Assembly: GCA_017303775.1 (NCBI GenBank)
Contig: JAFLCH010000010.1
Location: 1-34,537, forward strand
Origin: Anaerolineae bacterium
GTDB lineage: Bacteria; Chloroflexota; Anaerolineae; Aggregatilineales; Phototrophicaceae
DNA length: 34,537 nt
Direction: 5' to 3'
Shown here: positions 3,538-34,395 of the stretch, one piece after another
Layout: each line of letters opens with the position of its first letter
Position numbering within the stretch: the stretch's first letter is position 1
Position numbers and translations under genes: made by a program
The notes under the pieces: model-generated
What the model was told of the DNA's origin: nothing
The model's database searches: none
What the model saw: the letters and a program-made list of their open reading frames with translations, nothing else

Positions 3538-4365
3538 CTAGACACGATTGTAGAAACCGGGCATATCTCGACCTCCGCTTCCATGTGTCAGGCCACGAAT
3601 TAGCTCAATCAGCATATCGGTCAAGATAGCGAAAGATTCTTCACCTTCGACAGCTGTTGCTCGTGCCGGGTCACCGTTGTAAGCCTGTACCAAGCCCATC
3701 TCTACAAAATCTTTCTGACCACGCCCGATCACATTAACGAGGCTGATAGGTATCTCAGGTAAGGCTGGCATCAATTGGGTATCAACTAATTCAGGGTGAT
3801 CCGCCAGAACAAGAGATGTTTCATAACGTCCAGCGTGACACTCACTCTTTTTGAATTCCTCGGTGAGGCGTACAGCGCGTTCGCGGCGGGTGAGGTCAAG
3901 ATAACCTATAAGAACGCCGGTCGATTCTTGAATGAGGTCGATACTACGATGAAGTGTCTGGACATGTTCCGGCTCGAAGTGGTTGTTAACAAGGATGATA
4001 TATTGGAATCCTTGTTCAATTAATGAGCGGCATATATCAACAATCATTGCTTGCAAAGTGGCTTCGTTGACATGAATGGTTCCCAAGAAACGACCTGCAT
4101 AACGGGTGACCGCATAGCCAAGGCTTGGCAAGATCAGTGCAGTGACTTCAGAGTCATCTGCTAACTGTTGGGCTGCACGTCGACACATTCCCTCAGAAAT
4201 GATGACATCAGTACTTAACGGTGAGTGAGGGCCGTGTGCTTCTGTTGCGCCGACGGGGAAGAGGAGCACCGTTTTTCGACCGGCTTTGAGACGAGACTCA
4301 AGTTGGCTATAAGAGTGGTTCGCAAAATAAAGCTCTCTATTTTGCATGTCTTGTCTTTCAACCAT
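3538..4365 (-). CDS. Creatininase-family metal-dependent amidohydrolase
   Basis: 275 residues from the first ATG (4365); an alternative ATG at 4347 would remove six residues. Metal ligands of the creatininase fold are all visible: E42, H44 and D53 in GATEAHGPHSPLSTD, then H129 and E131 in LVNNHFEPEH, then H177 and E182 in CHAGRYETS. Spacings match Pseudomonas creatininase (Glu34, His36, Asp45, His120, Glu122, His178). The HxE form (HFE) resembles real creatininases (NGHYEN) more than the NGHGGN form of MftE-type or formamide-hydrolase members. The reaction is probably hydrolysis of a cyclic or linear amide. It lies 10 bases after the MDR gene and just before hyuA/hyuB, a context suggesting creatinine-, hydantoin- or lactam-like substrates. 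True creatininase activity is not proven. Confidence 0.88.
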   Translation of the reverse strand: MVERQDMQNRELYFANHSYSQLESRLKAGRKTVLLFPVGATEAHGPHSPLSTDVIISEGMCRRAAQQLADDSEVTALILPSLGYAVTRYAGRFLGTIHVNEATLQAMIVDICRSLIEQGFQYIILVNNHFEPEHVQTLHRSIDLIQESTGVLIGYLDLTRRERAVRLTEEFKKSECHAGRYETSLVLADHPELVDTQLMPALPEIPISLVNVIGRGQKDFVEMGLVQAYNGDPARATAVEGEESFAILTDMLIELIRGLTHGSGGRDMPGFYNRV

Positions 4366-26787: not shown

Positions 26788-27783
26788 TCAATAAAGATGA
26801 CACGCAGCCCAATGCTTCGGCTTAACTTCTTGCAAACTTGGTTCTTCAACCCGGCATCGATCCATCACAAACGGGCAGCGCGGATGGAAACGGCATCCCG
26901 TTGGTGGGTTAACGAGGTTCGGCACTTCGCCCTCCAGTAAAACCCGCTCCCGTTTCACATCGGGATCGACTTCCGGAATAGCCTTGATGAGCAGTTGGGT
27001 ATAAGGGTGGAATGGCTCATCAATAACCGTATTGGTATCCCCGAGTTCAATCAGCTTCCCCGCATACATCGTCATCGTCCGGTCGCAGATATAACGAACA
27101 GTCGAAAGATCGTGCGAAACGTACAGAATCGCTGTCTCAAGCGTTTGGCTTAACTGTTTCAATAAATTGAGGATTCCGGCGCGAATAGAAACATCCAGCA
27201 TCGAAACCGGTTCGTCAGCCACCAGAAACTTCGGTTCGATGACAATAGCGCGCGCAATCGCAAGTCGTTGTCGTTGCCCGCCGCTTAACTCGTGGGGATA
27301 ACGATCAAGAAAATTCTCCGGCGGGCTGATTTCGGCTCGCTCAAGTGCCTGCAATACGCGTTCCAGATGCTCATCCTTCGTCCCAATTTTGTTCAGCCGC
27401 AGCGGTTCTACGACCGATTCGAAAACGGTAGATCGCGGATTGAGCGATTCATAGGGGTTTTGAAAAATGATCTGTGCCTGTCGTCGGAAGTTCTGTAAGC
27501 GGTCTCCACTATGGGTGGTTATATCTTCCCCCATAAAAGTGATGGTTCCACCGGTTGGTTCATACAGGCGCAGCGCCGTCATACCCACCGTTGTTTTTCC
27601 GGAACCGCTTTCACCGACAATCCCGATTATCTCACCGGCTCGGATAGAAAAGCTGACGCCATCAACCGCCCGGACGAACTGCTGTTTCTCGCGTTTCAGC
27701 AGGGCATCAATGAATCCTTGTTGCAGTGGATACCACTTTTGAAGGTCTTTAACGGCAAATACAATCGAATTGCTATCGTTCAT
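26788..27783 (-). CDS. dppF: Peptide-type ABC importer ATPase DppF
   Basis: 331 residues. Walker A GESGSGKTT, Q-loop FQNPYESLNPR, signature LSGGQRQRLAIARAI, Walker B FLVADEPVSMLD and the switch His (LYVSHD) are all present. The OppF/DppF C-terminal Cys motif GCRFHPRCPFVMDRC is present. It drives import by ATP hydrolysis with DppD at the inner face of the membrane. It lies 66 bases after dppD and just before the AstE pair. Since importer 1 has no ATPase genes, this pair may power both importers. Confidence 0.96.
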   Translation of the reverse strand: MNDSNSIVFAVKDLQKWYPLQQGFIDALLKREKQQFVRAVDGVSFSIRAGEIIGIVGESGSGKTTVGMTALRLYEPTGGTITFMGEDITTHSGDRLQNFRRQAQIIFQNPYESLNPRSTVFESVVEPLRLNKIGTKDEHLERVLQALERAEISPPENFLDRYPHELSGGQRQRLAIARAIVIEPKFLVADEPVSMLDVSIRAGILNLLKQLSQTLETAILYVSHDLSTVRYICDRTMTMYAGKLIELGDTNTVIDEPFHPYTQLLIKAIPEVDPDVKRERVLLEGEVPNLVNPPTGCRFHPRCPFVMDRCRVEEPSLQEVKPKHWAACHLY

Positions 27784-27849: not shown

Positions 27850-28902
27850 TCACACGCTTGGTTTTCTGACCTGTAGTTCACGGTTTTTCGTAATTCTTGC
27901 CTGCTTCCACAACTGTCCATCTGCTGCCCGTTCTCTAAACTCCGGAGCCAATTCCGGGAAGTGGCAGGCTGAGTAATGTCCCGGCTCAACCTCGGTGATG
28001 ATTGGCTCCTCTTCAATACAGCGCTCTTGTGCAAACGGGCAGCGTGTATGAAAGCGGCAGCCCGACGGCGCATTCATTAAGTCCGGTGGGCTGCCCGGAA
28101 TCGATATGAGTTCTTGAATCGGCCCTCTTAGCCGTGGAAATGCATTCTTTAGTCCCAGTGTGTAAGGGTGATACGCTTGCCTGAGCAGGGGGCCGGTTGC
28201 CGCATATTCCACAATCTTGCCCCCATACATGACAATCGTTTTGTCACAGTTTTCTGCAACGACCGAAATATCGTGTGTAACCAGCAGGAGGGACTTCTGT
28301 AATTGCTTCTGAATCCGATCAATCCGATCTAAGATTTGGTCTTTGACGATAACATCTAGTGCTGTCGTAGGTTCATCCGCCACAATCAAATCTGGATTCA
28401 GGGATAAAGACATCGCGATCAACACCCGTTGGCGCATGCCTCCACTGAATTGATGGGGATAATCGCGCAGTCGGTTGGGGTCTAAACCAACCATCTTGAA
28501 TAACTCACCTGCGCGGCGATACCCCTCTTCCTTAGTGATATTCTCATGCGCCTGAATGGATTCCAGAATCTGATCCCCAATTCGCGCAACCGGATCGAGT
28601 GCGTTCATCGCACTCTGCGGAATGAAAGACATCTCGCGCCAGCGTACCGTACTCAATTGCCGGTCAGACCACTGCGTAATATCCTTGCCATTTAAGATAA
28701 TCTGCCCATTGGCGATCTTGCCGTTCTTAGGCAGCAGTCGCAGTATCGCCCGCGCCAGTGTTGACTTACCGGAACCCGATTCGCCGACGATCCCGAAGTA
28801 CTCTCCCTTTTCAATCGTAAAAGAAACGTTGTCGACTGCTTTAAGCAATCCTTTGCGCAGTTGATAAACAACCTCAAGATTCCGAACATCTAAGAGGCTC
28901 AC
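27850..28902 (-). CDS. dppD: Peptide-type ABC importer ATPase DppD
   Basis: 350 residues starting at GTG 28902, which overlaps the DegT gene stop by 4 bases (GTGA); AAAGGAAAGAG lies upstream. Walker A GESGSGKST, signature FSGGMRQRVLIAMSL, Walker B LIVADEPTTALD and VTHD are intact, and the C-terminal Cys motif GCRFHTRCPFAQERC follows. It forms the ATPase dimer with DppF. Being read through from the DegT gene rather than from the permeases is an unusual operon order. Confidence 0.96.
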   Translation of the reverse strand: MSLLDVRNLEVVYQLRKGLLKAVDNVSFTIEKGEYFGIVGESGSGKSTLARAILRLLPKNGKIANGQIILNGKDITQWSDRQLSTVRWREMSFIPQSAMNALDPVARIGDQILESIQAHENITKEEGYRRAGELFKMVGLDPNRLRDYPHQFSGGMRQRVLIAMSLSLNPDLIVADEPTTALDVIVKDQILDRIDRIQKQLQKSLLLVTHDISVVAENCDKTIVMYGGKIVEYAATGPLLRQAYHPYTLGLKNAFPRLRGPIQELISIPGSPPDLMNAPSGCRFHTRCPFAQERCIEEEPIITEVEPGHYSACHFPELAPEFRERAADGQLWKQARITKNRELQVRKPSV

Positions 28903-30026
28903 GAGGCTCTTTCCTTTTGTTGGGCAGCGTTGGCAAGGGTATGGATGATATAAGTCACGTCTTCATCGCTTAAATGAGGGTGAATAGGCAGACAAATGAG
29001 TTCTTCAGCGGCCATTTCAGCCACAGGGAAATCACCTTTTTCATAACCCAGATGCTTGTACAAAGGTCTTGTATGCAAAACAGGCGTGAAGTGTGCGCCG
29101 GCTTCGATTCCATATCGTTGTAAGCCTGCGATGATGGCATCGCGTTGAGGCACACGAATGATATAAGTTCGCCAGCTTGGTTTTGTGTGCGTCGGCGGAT
29201 GTAAACGGGTTATGCCAAGCGCGTCACAAGCTTCATCATATCGTGCGGCGATCTCCCGCCGTCGCGCCAACCAACCCTCTAGATACGGCATTTTGGCATT
29301 AAGGGCAGCCGCCTGTATGCTGCTAATCATCACGTTGTAGCCCTCAAGGTCGAGGTCTGTGCTTCCCATAGCGGCTTGGTATCCGAAGCCGGAAATTTGT
29401 CGCCCCCGTATCGCGATCTCATCATCGTTCGTGACGAATATGCCTCCCCAGCCAATGCCGCCGAGAATTTTGGTTGGTGCGAAGCTAAAAGCCGCCATCT
29501 GTCCCAAACTACCGGCTCGCTGCTGCCGGTATTCAGCTCCCACAGCTAATGCGGCGTCTTCAATGACCATTAACTGGTGCTCGCGTGCGATCTCATTGAT
29601 AGCGTCCATCTCCGCCACCTGACCATGCAAATGGACGGGCATAATGGCTTTGGTGCGTTCGGTAATTGCCGGAGCAATTTTCTTTGGGTCGAGTGTTAAA
29701 GTTTCTTCGCTGATGTCTGCAAAACGGATCGTAGCATTCGCTAACGAAATGGCCGCCGTTGTGCATTTACTGGTGTACGGAGCAGTAATGACCTCATCAC
29801 CAAACCCTATTCCAGCGGCACGTAAACCGACCAGCAGCGCCATGGTTCCTGAAGCCGTTCCCACACCATGCCTGACACCGCAAAATTGGGCAAAAGTCTC
29901 TTCTAGCTGGCGAACATTCTCATCGAGCACATACTGTCCGGATTGCAGGACGGACAGCACGGCCTCGTCTATATCCTTTTTAGCCGCCTCATAGTCACGG
30001 GTCGCTTCCGATAATCTGAGTTGCAT
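28899..30026 (-). CDS. DegT/DnrJ/EryC1-family PLP enzyme, inside the importer operon
   Basis: 375 residues, standard for sugar aminotransferase-like DegT proteins. The PLP lysine is K186 in FSFAPTKILGG and the pyridine-N Asp is D157 in VIEDAALAVGAEY. The usual EDAAQAHGA reads EDAALAVGA, so the Gln and His seen in most family members are missing. Known members aminate keto sugars in cell-surface or antibiotic sugar synthesis; a few act in other ways. Its ATG shares a base with the dppC2 stop (TGATG), and its stop overlaps the dppD start, so it is an integral gene of the importer 2 operon. No sugar-nucleotide genes are near, so a catabolic role is possible. Confidence 0.9.
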   Translation of the reverse strand: MQLRLSEATRDYEAAKKDIDEAVLSVLQSGQYVLDENVRQLEETFAQFCGVRHGVGTASGTMALLVGLRAAGIGFGDEVITAPYTSKCTTAAISLANATIRFADISEETLTLDPKKIAPAITERTKAIMPVHLHGQVAEMDAINEIAREHQLMVIEDAALAVGAEYRQQRAGSLGQMAAFSFAPTKILGGIGWGGIFVTNDDEIAIRGRQISGFGYQAAMGSTDLDLEGYNVMISSIQAAALNAKMPYLEGWLARRREIAARYDEACDALGITRLHPPTHTKPSWRTYIIRVPQRDAIIAGLQRYGIEAGAHFTPVLHTRPLYKHLGYEKGDFPVAEMAAEELICLPIHPHLSDEDVTYIIHTLANAAQQKERAS

Positions 30027-30967
30027 CAGCCGCCGTACTCCCGTAGACGGGGATCGGTCGATGCCTCGAAGGCTCTACCCACCATGTAAGATGCCGTCAC
30101 AAATAGGGCGATGCACGCGCCCGGTGGAACAATCCACCACCATGCCCGCCGCGCAGCCCCCGCCCGAAACGCATCATTCAGCATCGTTCCCCAACTTGGA
30201 AAACGCGGGTCGCCAAAGCCCAGAAAACTGAGTCCGGCTTCCGTCAATACACCGGTACTGACCGCCAATGCCGTATATAGCAAGATCAACGGCAGCACAT
30301 TAGGCAAAATGTGGCGGTAGATAATGTAGGCCGGTTTCGCCCCCGCTGCTCTGGCCGACCAGATGAAAGGGCGCTGCTTCAAGCTTAAGACCTGAGCACG
30401 AATGACTCGTGCTGTGCTGCGCCAGAACAACAGCGAGATGATCAGAATGACATTCCAGATGCTCGTCCCCAGCAGCGATACGAGGACAATCGCAAACGGC
30501 AGAAAGGGAATACCATACGTAATATCCACCAGTCCCATCAGAAACTCATCGAGTTTGCCGCCGCTGTAGCCTGCCCATAAAGCGACATTACTACCAATAA
30601 ACACCGTCACAATGGCCGATAAGAAACCAACAACCACAGCCACCCGCGCCCCCGATAGCGTCTGGCTAAAGACATCACGACCTGCCGTAGTAGTTCCAAA
30701 CCAGTAACGCGCTGAAGGTGGTTCGCCGCGCGCCAGACTGCCATCCTCCAAATACTGGAGATCGTTCGGGCCATACGGTGTCAAACTGTCACCAAATGCA
30801 GCGATAAAGAAAAACACCAAAAGAATGATTAAACCAATAGTCCCCGGCCCATCGCGCAAGATTTCACGAAACTGCATAACCAGCCACGAGCGGCGGCTTG
30901 CATGAACGCCCTTTCTTGCTGGCCGTCCAGCCTCACCGTAATTTCCTTCCGGATTTGTAGTGTTCAT
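30026..30967 (-). CDS. dppC: ABC importer permease DppC2
   Basis: 313 residues. A cytoplasmic N-terminal extension of about 35 residues (MNTTNPEGNYGEAGRPAR) precedes the first TM helix (TIGLIILLVFFFIAAFGDSL). The OppC-type FGTTTAGRDVFSQTLSGAR segment, EAA loop QRPFIWSARAAGAKPAYI and DPRL tail are present. AGGAA lies just before ATG, 7 bases after dppB2. It forms the membrane channel with DppB2. Confidence 0.95.
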   Translation of the reverse strand: MNTTNPEGNYGEAGRPARKGVHASRRSWLVMQFREILRDGPGTIGLIILLVFFFIAAFGDSLTPYGPNDLQYLEDGSLARGEPPSARYWFGTTTAGRDVFSQTLSGARVAVVVGFLSAIVTVFIGSNVALWAGYSGGKLDEFLMGLVDITYGIPFLPFAIVLVSLLGTSIWNVILIISLLFWRSTARVIRAQVLSLKQRPFIWSARAAGAKPAYIIYRHILPNVLPLILLYTALAVSTGVLTEAGLSFLGFGDPRFPSWGTMLNDAFRAGAARRAWWWIVPPGACIALFVTASYMVGRAFEASTDPRLREYGG

Positions 30968-30974
30968 TGGGTTC

Positions 30975-31946
30975 CTATTTCAAACTGATGCGTGGATCGA
31001 GCTTGTGGTAGAGAATATCGACGATGAAATACATGATGACTACCGAGGCCGACCACATGAAAAAGGCAGCCTGCGCCAGTGGATAATCCCGTGAATTCAC
31101 TGCCTCCACCAATGCCCGGCCAATTCCGGGCCATGAAAATACGGTTTCGAGTAGAACCGATCCGGCGACGGCAATCGTCGCTAAAAATGCCAGATACGTC
31201 ACGACCGGCAGCAGCGCATTCCGCATCGCATGCCGTACCACCACCCGTTCCGGCACACCCTTAGCCCGAATAACATCAAGGAATTCCTCGTTTTGTACCT
31301 CGATCATGCTGCTCCGCATGAGCATAATCGGGCTGGCAGCCAGATAAATCGCTGCCGTCATCATCGGCAGAATCAGATGCCGCAGGAAATCGATATTAAA
31401 GTAAATATCCCAGACCGTTTCCGCCGTGTACCCCAATTCGCGCATCCCGCTGGATGGAAACCAGCGCAGCCAGAAACTAAAAATAATTAATGCCACCAAC
31501 CCCAACCAGTACAGGGGAACACCGTGCAGAACCAGCGGTATCATGATCCCCCATCGCTCGATGATCGACCCGCGTTTCCACCCCATATAACTGCCGATGC
31601 CGATAGCGGCTACGATGGCCAGTACAACCGCCGGAACCATCAGCACAAGGCTGTTGCGCAAGAACGGCCCCAGCACTTCCATAACAGGCACGCGGTAAAA
31701 GAACGATCGACCGAAATCGAGTTTCAGTAGATTGCCCATATAAGTGAGGTACTGCGTAAAAACCGGCTTATCAATCCCCCAGAATTCTCTCAACTGCTGT
31801 TGACCCTCAGCCGTAAGCGAAGAATCAATCAACAGCGACGCGGGGTCAGCCGGAATTAACCGGAACATGAAGAAGATGATGGTCATGATGACCCATAAGG
31901 TAAAGATCATCCGAATAAAGCGGCGTAAGATGTATTCTCGGCTCAT
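30975..31946 (-). CDS. dppB: ABC importer permease DppB2
   Basis: 323 residues with the usual DppB topology: first TM helix (MIFTLWVIMTIIFFMFRLIP), LREFWGIDKPVFTQYLTYM loop, EAA loop NEEFLDVIRAKGVPERVV and final DPRISLK. The ribosome-binding site is weak, so translation may depend on read-through from the SBP2 gene past the hairpin at 31984-32010. It pairs with DppC2. Confidence 0.95.
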   Translation of the reverse strand: MSREYILRRFIRMIFTLWVIMTIIFFMFRLIPADPASLLIDSSLTAEGQQQLREFWGIDKPVFTQYLTYMGNLLKLDFGRSFFYRVPVMEVLGPFLRNSLVLMVPAVVLAIVAAIGIGSYMGWKRGSIIERWGIMIPLVLHGVPLYWLGLVALIIFSFWLRWFPSSGMRELGYTAETVWDIYFNIDFLRHLILPMMTAAIYLAASPIMLMRSSMIEVQNEEFLDVIRAKGVPERVVVRHAMRNALLPVVTYLAFLATIAVAGSVLLETVFSWPGIGRALVEAVNSRDYPLAQAAFFMWSASVVIMYFIVDILYHKLDPRISLK

Positions 31947-31983: not shown

Positions 31984-32010
31984 GGGGATCAGCACCGGTG
32001 GCTGATCCCC
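31984..32010. terminator. Strong hairpin after SBP2: intercistronic attenuator, or terminator on the plus strand
   Basis: GGGGATCAGC (31984-31993) pairs perfectly with GCTGATCCCC (32001-32010) across a 7-base loop. On the plus strand it is followed by TTTTT (32011-32015), the form of a rho-independent terminator, although no plus-strand gene is seen. On the minus strand it lies between the SBP2 stop and dppB2 without a T-run, which fits partial attenuation or 3'-end protection of SBP2 mRNA. Confidence 0.75.
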
Positions 32011-32024
32011 TTTTTGAAATGAGA

Positions 32025-33707
32025 TTACCCACCTACATTGTAAGATGCAGGATAGTGGAGTCGGCCTTCTGCGTCCCACGTATAGCCAGCTTCGGCCAGA
32101 ACCGCGCGGGCCGCTTCCGGATCATATCCGTAGGACATCGTATCCGGGTTGAAAAACGCGCTTGTCGGGTGCATGAAGTTGCCGTCTGCCGTGGATCCGC
32201 CGCCCAGACCAGCCACCACTTCAAGCATCGACGCTTTGGGAATGAGATGGTGTATCGCGCGCCGGAAGGCAAGGTCGCTGCCCGGTAGCACGCGGTTATC
32301 GATGTAAACCGATTGTATACCGACGCTCGGCGTGATCACCAGTTCAAGGTGTTCCATCGCCTCAAGGGTTTCGATCTGTGAATCACCCCGGATATACGTA
32401 CCATTGGCATCCAGTTCTTGGTTCTCCAACATGCCAATCCACACCTCTGGCGTCGGGATGATCGCCACAAGGATATTGATCGCCGGCGCTTGGAAGTGGT
32501 TCGGGTTCCCGTTGAACAACCATGATTCATTCTTCCGCCAGTGTCCGAAGGTGAACGGCCCGCTGCCGATGGGTTCTGCGTTTTCAAATGTCTGCGGATC
32601 GCTGACCTCCGACCAGATGTGCTGCGGCACGATGTAAATGGCCGTCAAAATGTTGGATTCGAAAGGTGCGAAAGCATTCTTCAGCGTGAAGCGTGCCGTA
32701 TAATCGCCCGTTTGCTCAACACCTGCCACCACATTGAAAATGCCTGCCCAGTTCGGGATCGCATTTTCCATCGCGTAATTCACGGTAAAGACCAGATCCT
32801 CAGCCGTTACCGCTTCGCCGTCATGGAACGTCATACCCTCACGCAGCTTAACGTCGATAGTCGTGTTGTCGACCCATTCCCACGATTCTGCTGCCCATGG
32901 GATGGTTTCCAACAGCTCATTCTTCCGTGCCAGCGTGTCATAAATCCACGTCATCGTAGCCGTATTAAACAGACCGCCTGTGGCGACAAACGGGTTTGTC
33001 GAATTGCCGTCATGATTATTTTCAATTCTCAACGTCGTCTGATCAGTCAATGGCTGGACGTTCAAGAACGAGGTCAAGTTGTTAAACCGTGAAATACCGG
33101 CGCTGGGGCGTTGCAGGAAACCCTCGAATTTGGTCTTATCATACGCCTGTACGTCATTGATGTAGTACACCGGGATGAATGGCGTCTCTCGTGCGAAGAT
33201 CTCCTGAATTTGCAGGATCATTCCCTTACGAACCTCAGGATCAAGCTCGATAGATTGGGCTTCGATCAACGCATCAACCTCTTCGTTCATCCAGTTCGCG
33301 AGGTTACTACCGCCCGCGCCCGCACCCGCCTTGCTTGAATGGAGGACATCCGTCAAGAACCAGTTCGGGTCAATGCGTTCGTCCGTAACCCCCGCACCCG
33401 TTGAGGTGAAGGTGCCGCAGTTCCGCTCTATACTGCAACTCTGAATCCACGTATTGGCCTCAATCGGCTGAATATCTAGCGTGATGCCGATTTGTTCCAG
33501 TTCGGGCTGAATTTGCCGCCACCATTCCTCATAAGAGGGGAATGCCAATTGCGATACGACCAGAGGTGGAACCAATGCGCCCATTTCTTCCTGTGCGCTT
33601 GAAGTGATCCACGTACCCAGTAGGAGACTGGTGATAAGGATCAACGACGTGATTTTGGAAAGCCGGCGTGAAACTATTCGGTGTCGCAAATACGGTAATA
33701 GAAACAT
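32025..33707 (-). CDS. Importer 2 substrate-binding protein SBP2, circularly permuted family-5 SBP
   Basis: 560 residues with an N-terminal signal sequence (core ITSLILITSLLLGTWITSSAQ, no lipobox Cys). AGGGGA precedes ATG. The family-5 SBP landmarks come in permuted order. First the normally C-terminal part: ELEQIGITL (69-77), DPNWFLTDV, EEVDALIEA and FIPVYYI (177-183). Then the normally N-terminal and middle parts: AAESWEW (272-278), FHDGEAV (294-300), GSGPF (381-385) and YDPEAARAVLAEAGY (528-542), ending shortly after. SBP1 in this window has these elements in the normal order. A Cys pair (C91, C97) matches the SBP1 site. It should bind the importer 2 ligand outside the membrane. The single open frame argues against a sequencing error. 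Confidence 0.9.
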   Translation of the reverse strand: MFLLPYLRHRIVSRRLSKITSLILITSLLLGTWITSSAQEEMGALVPPLVVSQLAFPSYEEWWRQIQPELEQIGITLDIQPIEANTWIQSCSIERNCGTFTSTGAGVTDERIDPNWFLTDVLHSSKAGAGAGGSNLANWMNEEVDALIEAQSIELDPEVRKGMILQIQEIFARETPFIPVYYINDVQAYDKTKFEGFLQRPSAGISRFNNLTSFLNVQPLTDQTTLRIENNHDGNSTNPFVATGGLFNTATMTWIYDTLARKNELLETIPWAAESWEWVDNTTIDVKLREGMTFHDGEAVTAEDLVFTVNYAMENAIPNWAGIFNVVAGVEQTGDYTARFTLKNAFAPFESNILTAIYIVPQHIWSEVSDPQTFENAEPIGSGPFTFGHWRKNESWLFNGNPNHFQAPAINILVAIIPTPEVWIGMLENQELDANGTYIRGDSQIETLEAMEHLELVITPSVGIQSVYIDNRVLPGSDLAFRRAIHHLIPKASMLEVVAGLGGGSTADGNFMHPTSAFFNPDTMSYGYDPEAARAVLAEAGYTWDAEGRLHYPASYNVGG

Positions 33708-33894: not shown

Positions 33895-34395
33895 TTAGCT
33901 CTCCGTTTCCGAACCGTCTTCATCTTTTATGAATTGGTCATAGCGGAACGTTCGCTTGATGGCCTTCAGCACATGGCTGGATGATATATGGCGTATGCCT
34001 TTGATTTTTGATAGTTTTTCAGTGAAGAAGTAAAACATTTCTTCTTCGCTTGTGAATGCCGATACCATGATCAAATCATAAAGACCGGTGGTATAGCTGA
34101 CGTATGTCACCTCGGCGCATTCCGCCAGCGCATCTGCAACTTCTGTTATCCGGCCCAGATCAACCTCAATGCCCGAAAACAATTGGTGGCGGTGTCCAAT
34201 CTTCCACGGGTCTACAATCGCCACAATTTGCAGTACTTCCTCATCAATGAGCCGTTGAATGCGGTTTCGCACCGTACCGTCCGACACATTGAGTTTGCGC
34301 GCGATTGCGGTATTCGTTTGCGACGCATCCTCCATCAAATAGGCCAGAAGTTTTTTGTCGAATTCGTCTAGTTTGATCATCACGCTCAGGTCCAT
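33895..34395 (-). CDS. Lrp/AsnC family transcriptional regulator
   Basis: 166 residues from ATG 34395; an alternative ATG at 34380 (MIKLDEFDKK) is equally usual for the family. The N-terminal helix-turn-helix (residues about 26-52: TNTAIARKLNVSDGTVRNRI) is followed by the RAM ligand-binding domain (IEVDLGRITEVADALAEC, VSYTTGLYDLIMVSAF). Such proteins form dimers or octamers and respond to amino acids. Placed at the head of a cluster rich in aminotransferases and peptide importers, on the same strand, it most likely controls the cluster and itself. The last residues (DEDGSETES) are acidic and variable. Confidence 0.94.
   Translation of the reverse strand: MDLSVMIKLDEFDKKLLAYLMEDASQTNTAIARKLNVSDGTVRNRIQRLIDEEVLQIVAIVDPWKIGHRHQLFSGIEVDLGRITEVADALAECAEVTYVSYTTGLYDLIMVSAFTSEEEMFYFFTEKLSKIKGIRHISSSHVLKAIKRTFRYDQFIKDEDGSETES

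Follow-up and report, generated by a model that had tools for sequence, protein, structure and literature searches.

Natural permutants among importer binding proteins

Only few natural circular permutants have been reported among the binding proteins of ABC importers. The glucose-binding protein MglB-2 of Treponema pallidum (Tp0684, 'Type Ic / Cluster Bc') is such a permutant, in which part of the N-lobe has been moved and a fourth hinge crossing added, and its homologues are found mostly in treponemes and Gram-positives (PMC4990184). Here we describe SBP2 (P0001), a substrate-binding protein (SBP) encoded in a stretch of 34,537 nucleotides from an Anaerolineae bacterium of the Phototrophicaceae (contig JAFLCH010000010.1; hereafter the window). 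SBP2 resembles MglB-2 in being a naturally permuted binding protein of the ABC-importer type, probably also with a bilobed flytrap fold, but MglB-2 has a cluster B sugar-binding fold and is not of family 5. With the family-5 or cluster-C SBPs (DppA, OppA, AppA, NikA, SapA), SBP2 shares homology in both of its halves as well as the B-C-D-F partner genes, and differs from them in that the halves are swapped. While natural permutation of an importer SBP is known for cluster B (PMC4990184), a literature search conducted mostly outside subscription papers and preprints found no permuted family-5 SBP. Profile annotation matches such proteins only piecewise, so that they carry just the general name "ABC transporter substrate-binding protein".

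Together, a permuted family that has a permease lineage to itself and a young permutant with ordinary kin, both described below, offer a clean natural test of whether the order of the chain and the position of the anchor make a difference to ABC import. The loop behind the conserved AEAGY helix, at which these chains are opened, is also a site where designers of biosensors could open family-5 SBPs.

Swapped order of the two halves in SBP2

On the evidence of its sequence, SBP2 is a family-5 (cluster C) SBP with its C-terminal third placed first, behind a signal peptide. The gene and the parts of its product are the following:

32025..33707, minus strand: SBP2, permuted family-5 substrate-binding protein (560 aa, P0001), from the ORF, PF00496, profile matches and a rotation scan
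33594..33707, minus strand: signal peptide, residues 1 to ~38, Sec-like by eye and without lipobox
33075..33545, minus strand: transposed C-terminal half, residues 55-211, equivalent to canonical profile 383-534 (profile; BLASTP 66-187 to SBP1 398-506)
33048..33074, minus strand: new linker from the old C-terminus to the old N-terminus, ~residues 212-220, TSFLNVQPL (gap between the profile matches)
32064..33047, minus strand: old N-terminal half, residues 221-548, equivalent to canonical profile 35-365 (profile; fold match over 221-556)

A scan for lipobox and RR motifs found neither in SBP2. The old N-terminal half stops after the AEAGY helix, and the final 12 residues form a new C-terminal tail. 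PF00496 matches SBP2 in two stretches at 192.5 bits (curated cut-off 32.4) and is the sole Pfam family above its cut-off, while the PDB sequence matches shown are of family-5 type; we therefore rejected a permuted cluster-B SBP of the TpMglB-2 type as an identity for this protein. The best profile matches in the PDB include AppA (1xoc) and DppA (1dpp/8z1y), and all PDB sequences for which an alignment in two stretches was displayed have the ordinary order. Against the NCBIfam equivalogs (DppA, OppA, NikA, GsiB, SapA and others) SBP2 stays below every cut-off, with a best score of 103 bits vs 393 (NikA).

The preliminary description of the locus had read the landmark motifs of SBP2 in the order ELEQIGI, FIPVYYI, FHDG, GSGPF and AEAGY and those of SBP1, another SBP encoded in the window, in the order FHDG, GSGAF, AEAGW, QLAEVGI and WIPLW, and both orders hold on reading the sequences. 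It had also proposed that the C-terminal segment has moved to the front behind a signal peptide, which agrees with the matches of a canonical profile built from about 65 proteins classed as having canonical order: residues 55-211 correspond to profile 383-534 (85 bits) and are followed by residues 221-548, corresponding to 35-365 (250 bits), so that both halves are homologous and the canonical order of halves is absent. The alignment with SBP1 suggested at the time likewise gives two significant BLASTP pieces in swapped order (255-550 to SBP1 60-371, 6e-13; 66-187 to SBP1 398-506, 2e-6). The break had been placed right after the AEAGY helix; it does follow this helix, though not immediately, and lies in the loop between profile ~366 and 383.

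When the mature chain of SBP2 was rotated in ten-residue steps and scored as a single match to the profile, the score climbed from 250 bits without rotation, peaked at 341 with the cut placed near residue 219, and dropped beyond it. Rotated at 219, SBP2 gives one full-length match (profile 36-534), and shuffled chains score below 0. Applied to all SBPs that we collected, the order test returned 25 permuted sequences (among them a re-fetched copy of the window and the frameshifted L079), 76 canonical and 2 undecided ones. In 24 of the 25 permuted sequences the rotated form outscores the native one by 48-154 bits, the exception being the haloarchaeal L054 with 246 bits, unchanged on rotation.

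Lobe arrangement and proposed working

Compared with E. coli DppA (1dpp numbering), the halves of SBP2 align with residues 3-339 and 354-493, which places the opening of the chain between ~340 and 353. Domain II of SapA spans 313-531 (PMC8519434) and domain 2 of MppA spans 288-506, with its hinge at 286-287 and 507-508 (PMC6022919); these limits locate the SBP2 break inside the second lobe, and the permuted chain would accordingly run through the end of lobe II, the edge of lobe I, the linker, the rest of lobe I and the start of lobe II. By homology, the chain would cross between the lobes twice, just as that of an ordinary family-5 SBP does, and the altered hinge motion raised in the preliminary description finds no support here. 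Altered docking or tethering to the permeases is possible as a prediction.

An AlphaFold model of SBP2 from a three-row alignment reached a pLDDT of 42.6, and adding canonical half-fragments gave a mean pLDDT of 63.3 and a pTM of 0.52, with low confidence in the C-half. The best Foldseek matches of the model are family-5 SBPs; structural alignment to family-5 entries gives Z 16-18 over residues 221-556, the only segment that the matched rows span.

We propose that the chain was opened in the second-lobe loop after the conserved AEAGY helix and that the old C- and N-termini were fused by the linker of ~9 residues, with the export signal preceding the new N-terminus. The two lobes would be complete with both crossings and would close on a ligand held between them, to be handed to the adjacent B-C permeases in a process powered by the D-F ATPases. 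In this view SBP2 most likely serves its importer as an ordinary Venus flytrap, and we infer an intact fold, normal transport and a near-neutral permutation. Taken as a whole, it is very probable that SBP2 is a cluster-C SBP with a true, inherited circular permutation and that it would work with the adjacent importer as proposed.

Distribution and inheritance of the permuted family

A database search for the same order, which the preliminary description had recommended, finds it in other Chloroflexota, in a Verrucomicrobia MAG and on alphaproteobacterial and haloarchaeal plasmids. Six genomes that share the window's family or order contain same-order homologues (L011-L016), and the homologue from the Verrucomicrobia MAG (L002) is full-length with 31% identity over 12-553. 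Complete circular plasmids of haloarchaea and alphaproteobacteria carry others. Among the haloarchaea inspected, the order was found in Halalkalicoccus, Halobaculum, Natrinema, Halarchaeum, Natrononativus, Haladaptatus (two species) and Halorussus, and the other genera with this order on inspection are Neorhizobium, Nitratireductor, Ketogulonicigenium, Microvirga, Roseomonas and Maritalea. With P0001 as query, 29 plasmid records reach a coverage of 80% or more; the Halalkalicoccus protein as query retrieved 51 plasmid records, in part of which the order was inspected. Full-length same-order homologues are 25-32% identical to SBP2 and nearly all lie beside permease genes; around L081 and L143 the stretch fetched has no permease genes, and in G024 and G229 other genes intervene. 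In an alignment of 22 permuted proteins, each half contains invariant residues.

In an even sample of 301 Chloroflexota genomes, with the top four candidates per genome scored so that counts are a lower bound, at least three (G000, G030, G229) have strong full-span matches, in addition to two cases of a second type described below. Among 288 genomes of the Verrucomicrobia MAG's phylum, a strong match occurs in one, namely that MAG, and the viral contigs searched contain no permuted relative. A Fusobacterium protein (L044) has a match covering both halves, yet its order is ordinary.

In the haloarchaeal members a lipobox, mostly with a twin-arginine motif, precedes the transposed C-half. Three haloarchaeal permuted SBPs (L047, L049, L054) share a longer C-terminal tail (AFVERIQ...). 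The permuted SBP of Neorhizobium galegae VafX2 (L055 6655-8308) is annotated as two genes and may be frameshifted. The contig L001 contains at 1856-2869, right after a LamG-like ORF, an SBP fragment made of a signal peptide and the N-half from ~TAEDLVF, the product of either a chimeric contig or a truncation.

For phylogenetic trees, the halves of all SBPs were put into one common order. Among 89 rows, the 22 permuted proteins group in a single clade (SH-aLRT 99), and in a more careful tree of 31 rows the 8 permuted proteins included do so as well (100/99). The N-half alone recovers this main permuted clade with support 100; with just the 158 columns of the C-half it is not recovered, though no supported branch contradicts it. 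The B and C permeases encoded next to the SBPs of the main family likewise form one clade (support 100), in which those of SBP2 are nearest to the ones of L001 at 66% identity. With one SBP clade and one permease clade, the importer and its permuted SBP seem to have been co-inherited. Judged from these alignments and trees, the permuted order is conserved across Bacteria and Archaea, and transfer between the domains is a likely explanation for the spread of the main family.

A second, young permutation at the same loop

An OppA-like SBP with the same swap, ending at LLAEGGYKV, is encoded in two Chloroflexota genomes, G099 and G246 (as L078 and L079, respectively), which belong to one genus and consist of a single contig each. 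These proteins resemble SBP2 in that the same loop is opened within the same kind of operon, but they differ from it in having arisen separately, within an OppA-like clade whose other members are ordinary, in being young and in carrying a twin-arginine-like signal. The closest relatives of L078 have ordinary order and are 53-65% identical to the permuted form (N-half 55-60%, C-half 53-64%), and the permeases adjoining L078 are 68-81% identical to those of these ordinary kin. A third genome of the same genus (G150) has a canonical relative. A single origin of all permuted SBPs was rejected in the 31-row tree (AU p = 1.8e-6), with a log-likelihood 232 lower when L078 was held with the main family.

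Between L078 and L079, dN/dS is 0.027 over 479 codons, pointing to purifying selection that maintains the young permuted form. Synonymous divergence between the two is uneven (0.85 in the C-half, 0.26 in the N-half), maybe due to recombination. Compared with L078, L079 lacks 1 bp near position 3900 (~codon 95), which is either a sequencing error or the sign of a young pseudogene. Inspection by eye of the short flanks of L078 revealed no remnants of duplicated halves.

Across the permuted proteins, the profile match of the N-half stops at 360-366, or at 374-399 in three haloarchaeal proteins whose tails are longer, and that of the C-half mostly begins at 370-384. Judging from these breakpoints, both permutation events opened the same loop, and the trees indicate that the permutation arose at least twice independently. 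We consider it fairly likely that family-5 SBPs have a natural hot spot of permutation in the lobe-II loop behind the AEAGY helix, opened independently on two or more occasions, one of which founded an old subfamily of importers that spans Bacteria and Archaea and has a permease clade to itself.

Alternative explanations

The SBP2 host assembly consists of 439 contigs at 76% completeness, a setting in which assembly or binning might join two rearranged SBP genes into a chimera. The preliminary description had allowed for such a chimera in this assembly only, but full-length same-order homologues, at their low identity to SBP2, exist in other genomes and on complete circular replicons, which rules this out for practical purposes. 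It is very improbable as well that the gene is decaying or non-functional or that its product dimerises by domain swapping rather than acting as a monomeric flytrap. The 1-bp deletion in L079 would fit decay, and domain-swapped SBPs do exist (AliC, by the title of its structure); against this, the permuted form is conserved across domains with invariant residues in both halves and has a low dN/dS in the young pair, and the ~9 residues joining the old termini are what one would expect of a chain that closes on itself.

Fusion across a tandem duplication is a common way for permutants to arise, and two different SBP genes lying in tandem could have been fused in this manner, one supplying the C-half and the other the N-half, instead of a single gene being permuted. 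In the C-half tree SBP2 indeed lies nearest by path to canonical rows and not to other permuted proteins, but the N-halves of the main clade hold together at support 100 with no supported C-half branch in conflict, and for both halves of L078 the nearest sequences belong to a single set of ordinary orthologues with the same operon context. We regard such a two-gene fusion as unlikely. Rather unlikely, too, is an adaptive role of the permutation, by which the anchor or signal end would have shifted from lobe I to lobe II and changed the seating of the SBP on the permeases or the release to them. The lipobox of the haloarchaeal members would put the anchor on lobe II, the permeases of the main family form a clade of their own, and the same loop was opened twice, all of which would suit this idea; however, many members including SBP2 lack a lipobox, and the close similarity of the L078 permeases to those of its ordinary kin suggests that no large permease change was needed.

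Operon context and gene neighbourhood

SBP2 is encoded together with BPD permeases and oligo_HPY ATPases, in the following arrangement:

33895..34395, minus strand: Lrp/AsnC-type regulator, directly upstream of SBP2
30975..31946, minus strand: permease B (BPD_transp_1), domain match, in the permease clade of permuted systems
30026..30967, minus strand: permease C (BPD_transp_1, OppC_N), domain match, in the permease clade of permuted systems
28899..30026, minus strand: DegT/DnrJ/EryC1 aminotransferase inside the operon, between C and D
27850..28902, minus strand: ATPase D (ABC_tran, oligo_HPY)
26788..27783, minus strand: ATPase F (ABC_tran, oligo_HPY)

All transporter genes of the SBP-B-C-D-F operon noted in the preliminary description are present, but the operon is not an uninterrupted series of them, with the DegT/DnrJ aminotransferase gene (28899-30026) between C and D. 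An aminotransferase gene of this type also separates permease C and ATPase D in L001 (4885-6045). The 78-nt gap from the SBP2 stop to permease B contains a 10-bp stem-loop (31984-32010); stem-loops of such kind can occur where an SBP is expressed above its permeases. In Halalkalicoccus (L040), an Lrp/AsnC-type regulator is likewise found upstream of the permuted SBP.

Genes for hydantoinase/oxoprolinase A and B, creatininase, D-aminoacylase and Asp/Glu/hydantoin racemase recur near permuted SBPs, as do those for M20, M28, M55 or M81 peptidases and for Lrp/AsnC or IclR regulators. With low confidence, these neighbours suggest small amide- or peptide-like nitrogen compounds as the likeliest class of ligands. 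The scoop of E. coli DppB contacts residues R383 and D436 of DppA (PMC12136057), which both fall in the transposed half. In our alignment by eye, the acidic position is often kept among permuted SBPs (DER in SBP2, PER in many) but the arginine is not, and on this reading the ligand need not be a plain dipeptide. In G229, a gene for glycine/sarcosine/betaine reductase component B (L080 3237-4529) lies beside the permuted SBP, with a similar ORF on the other side.
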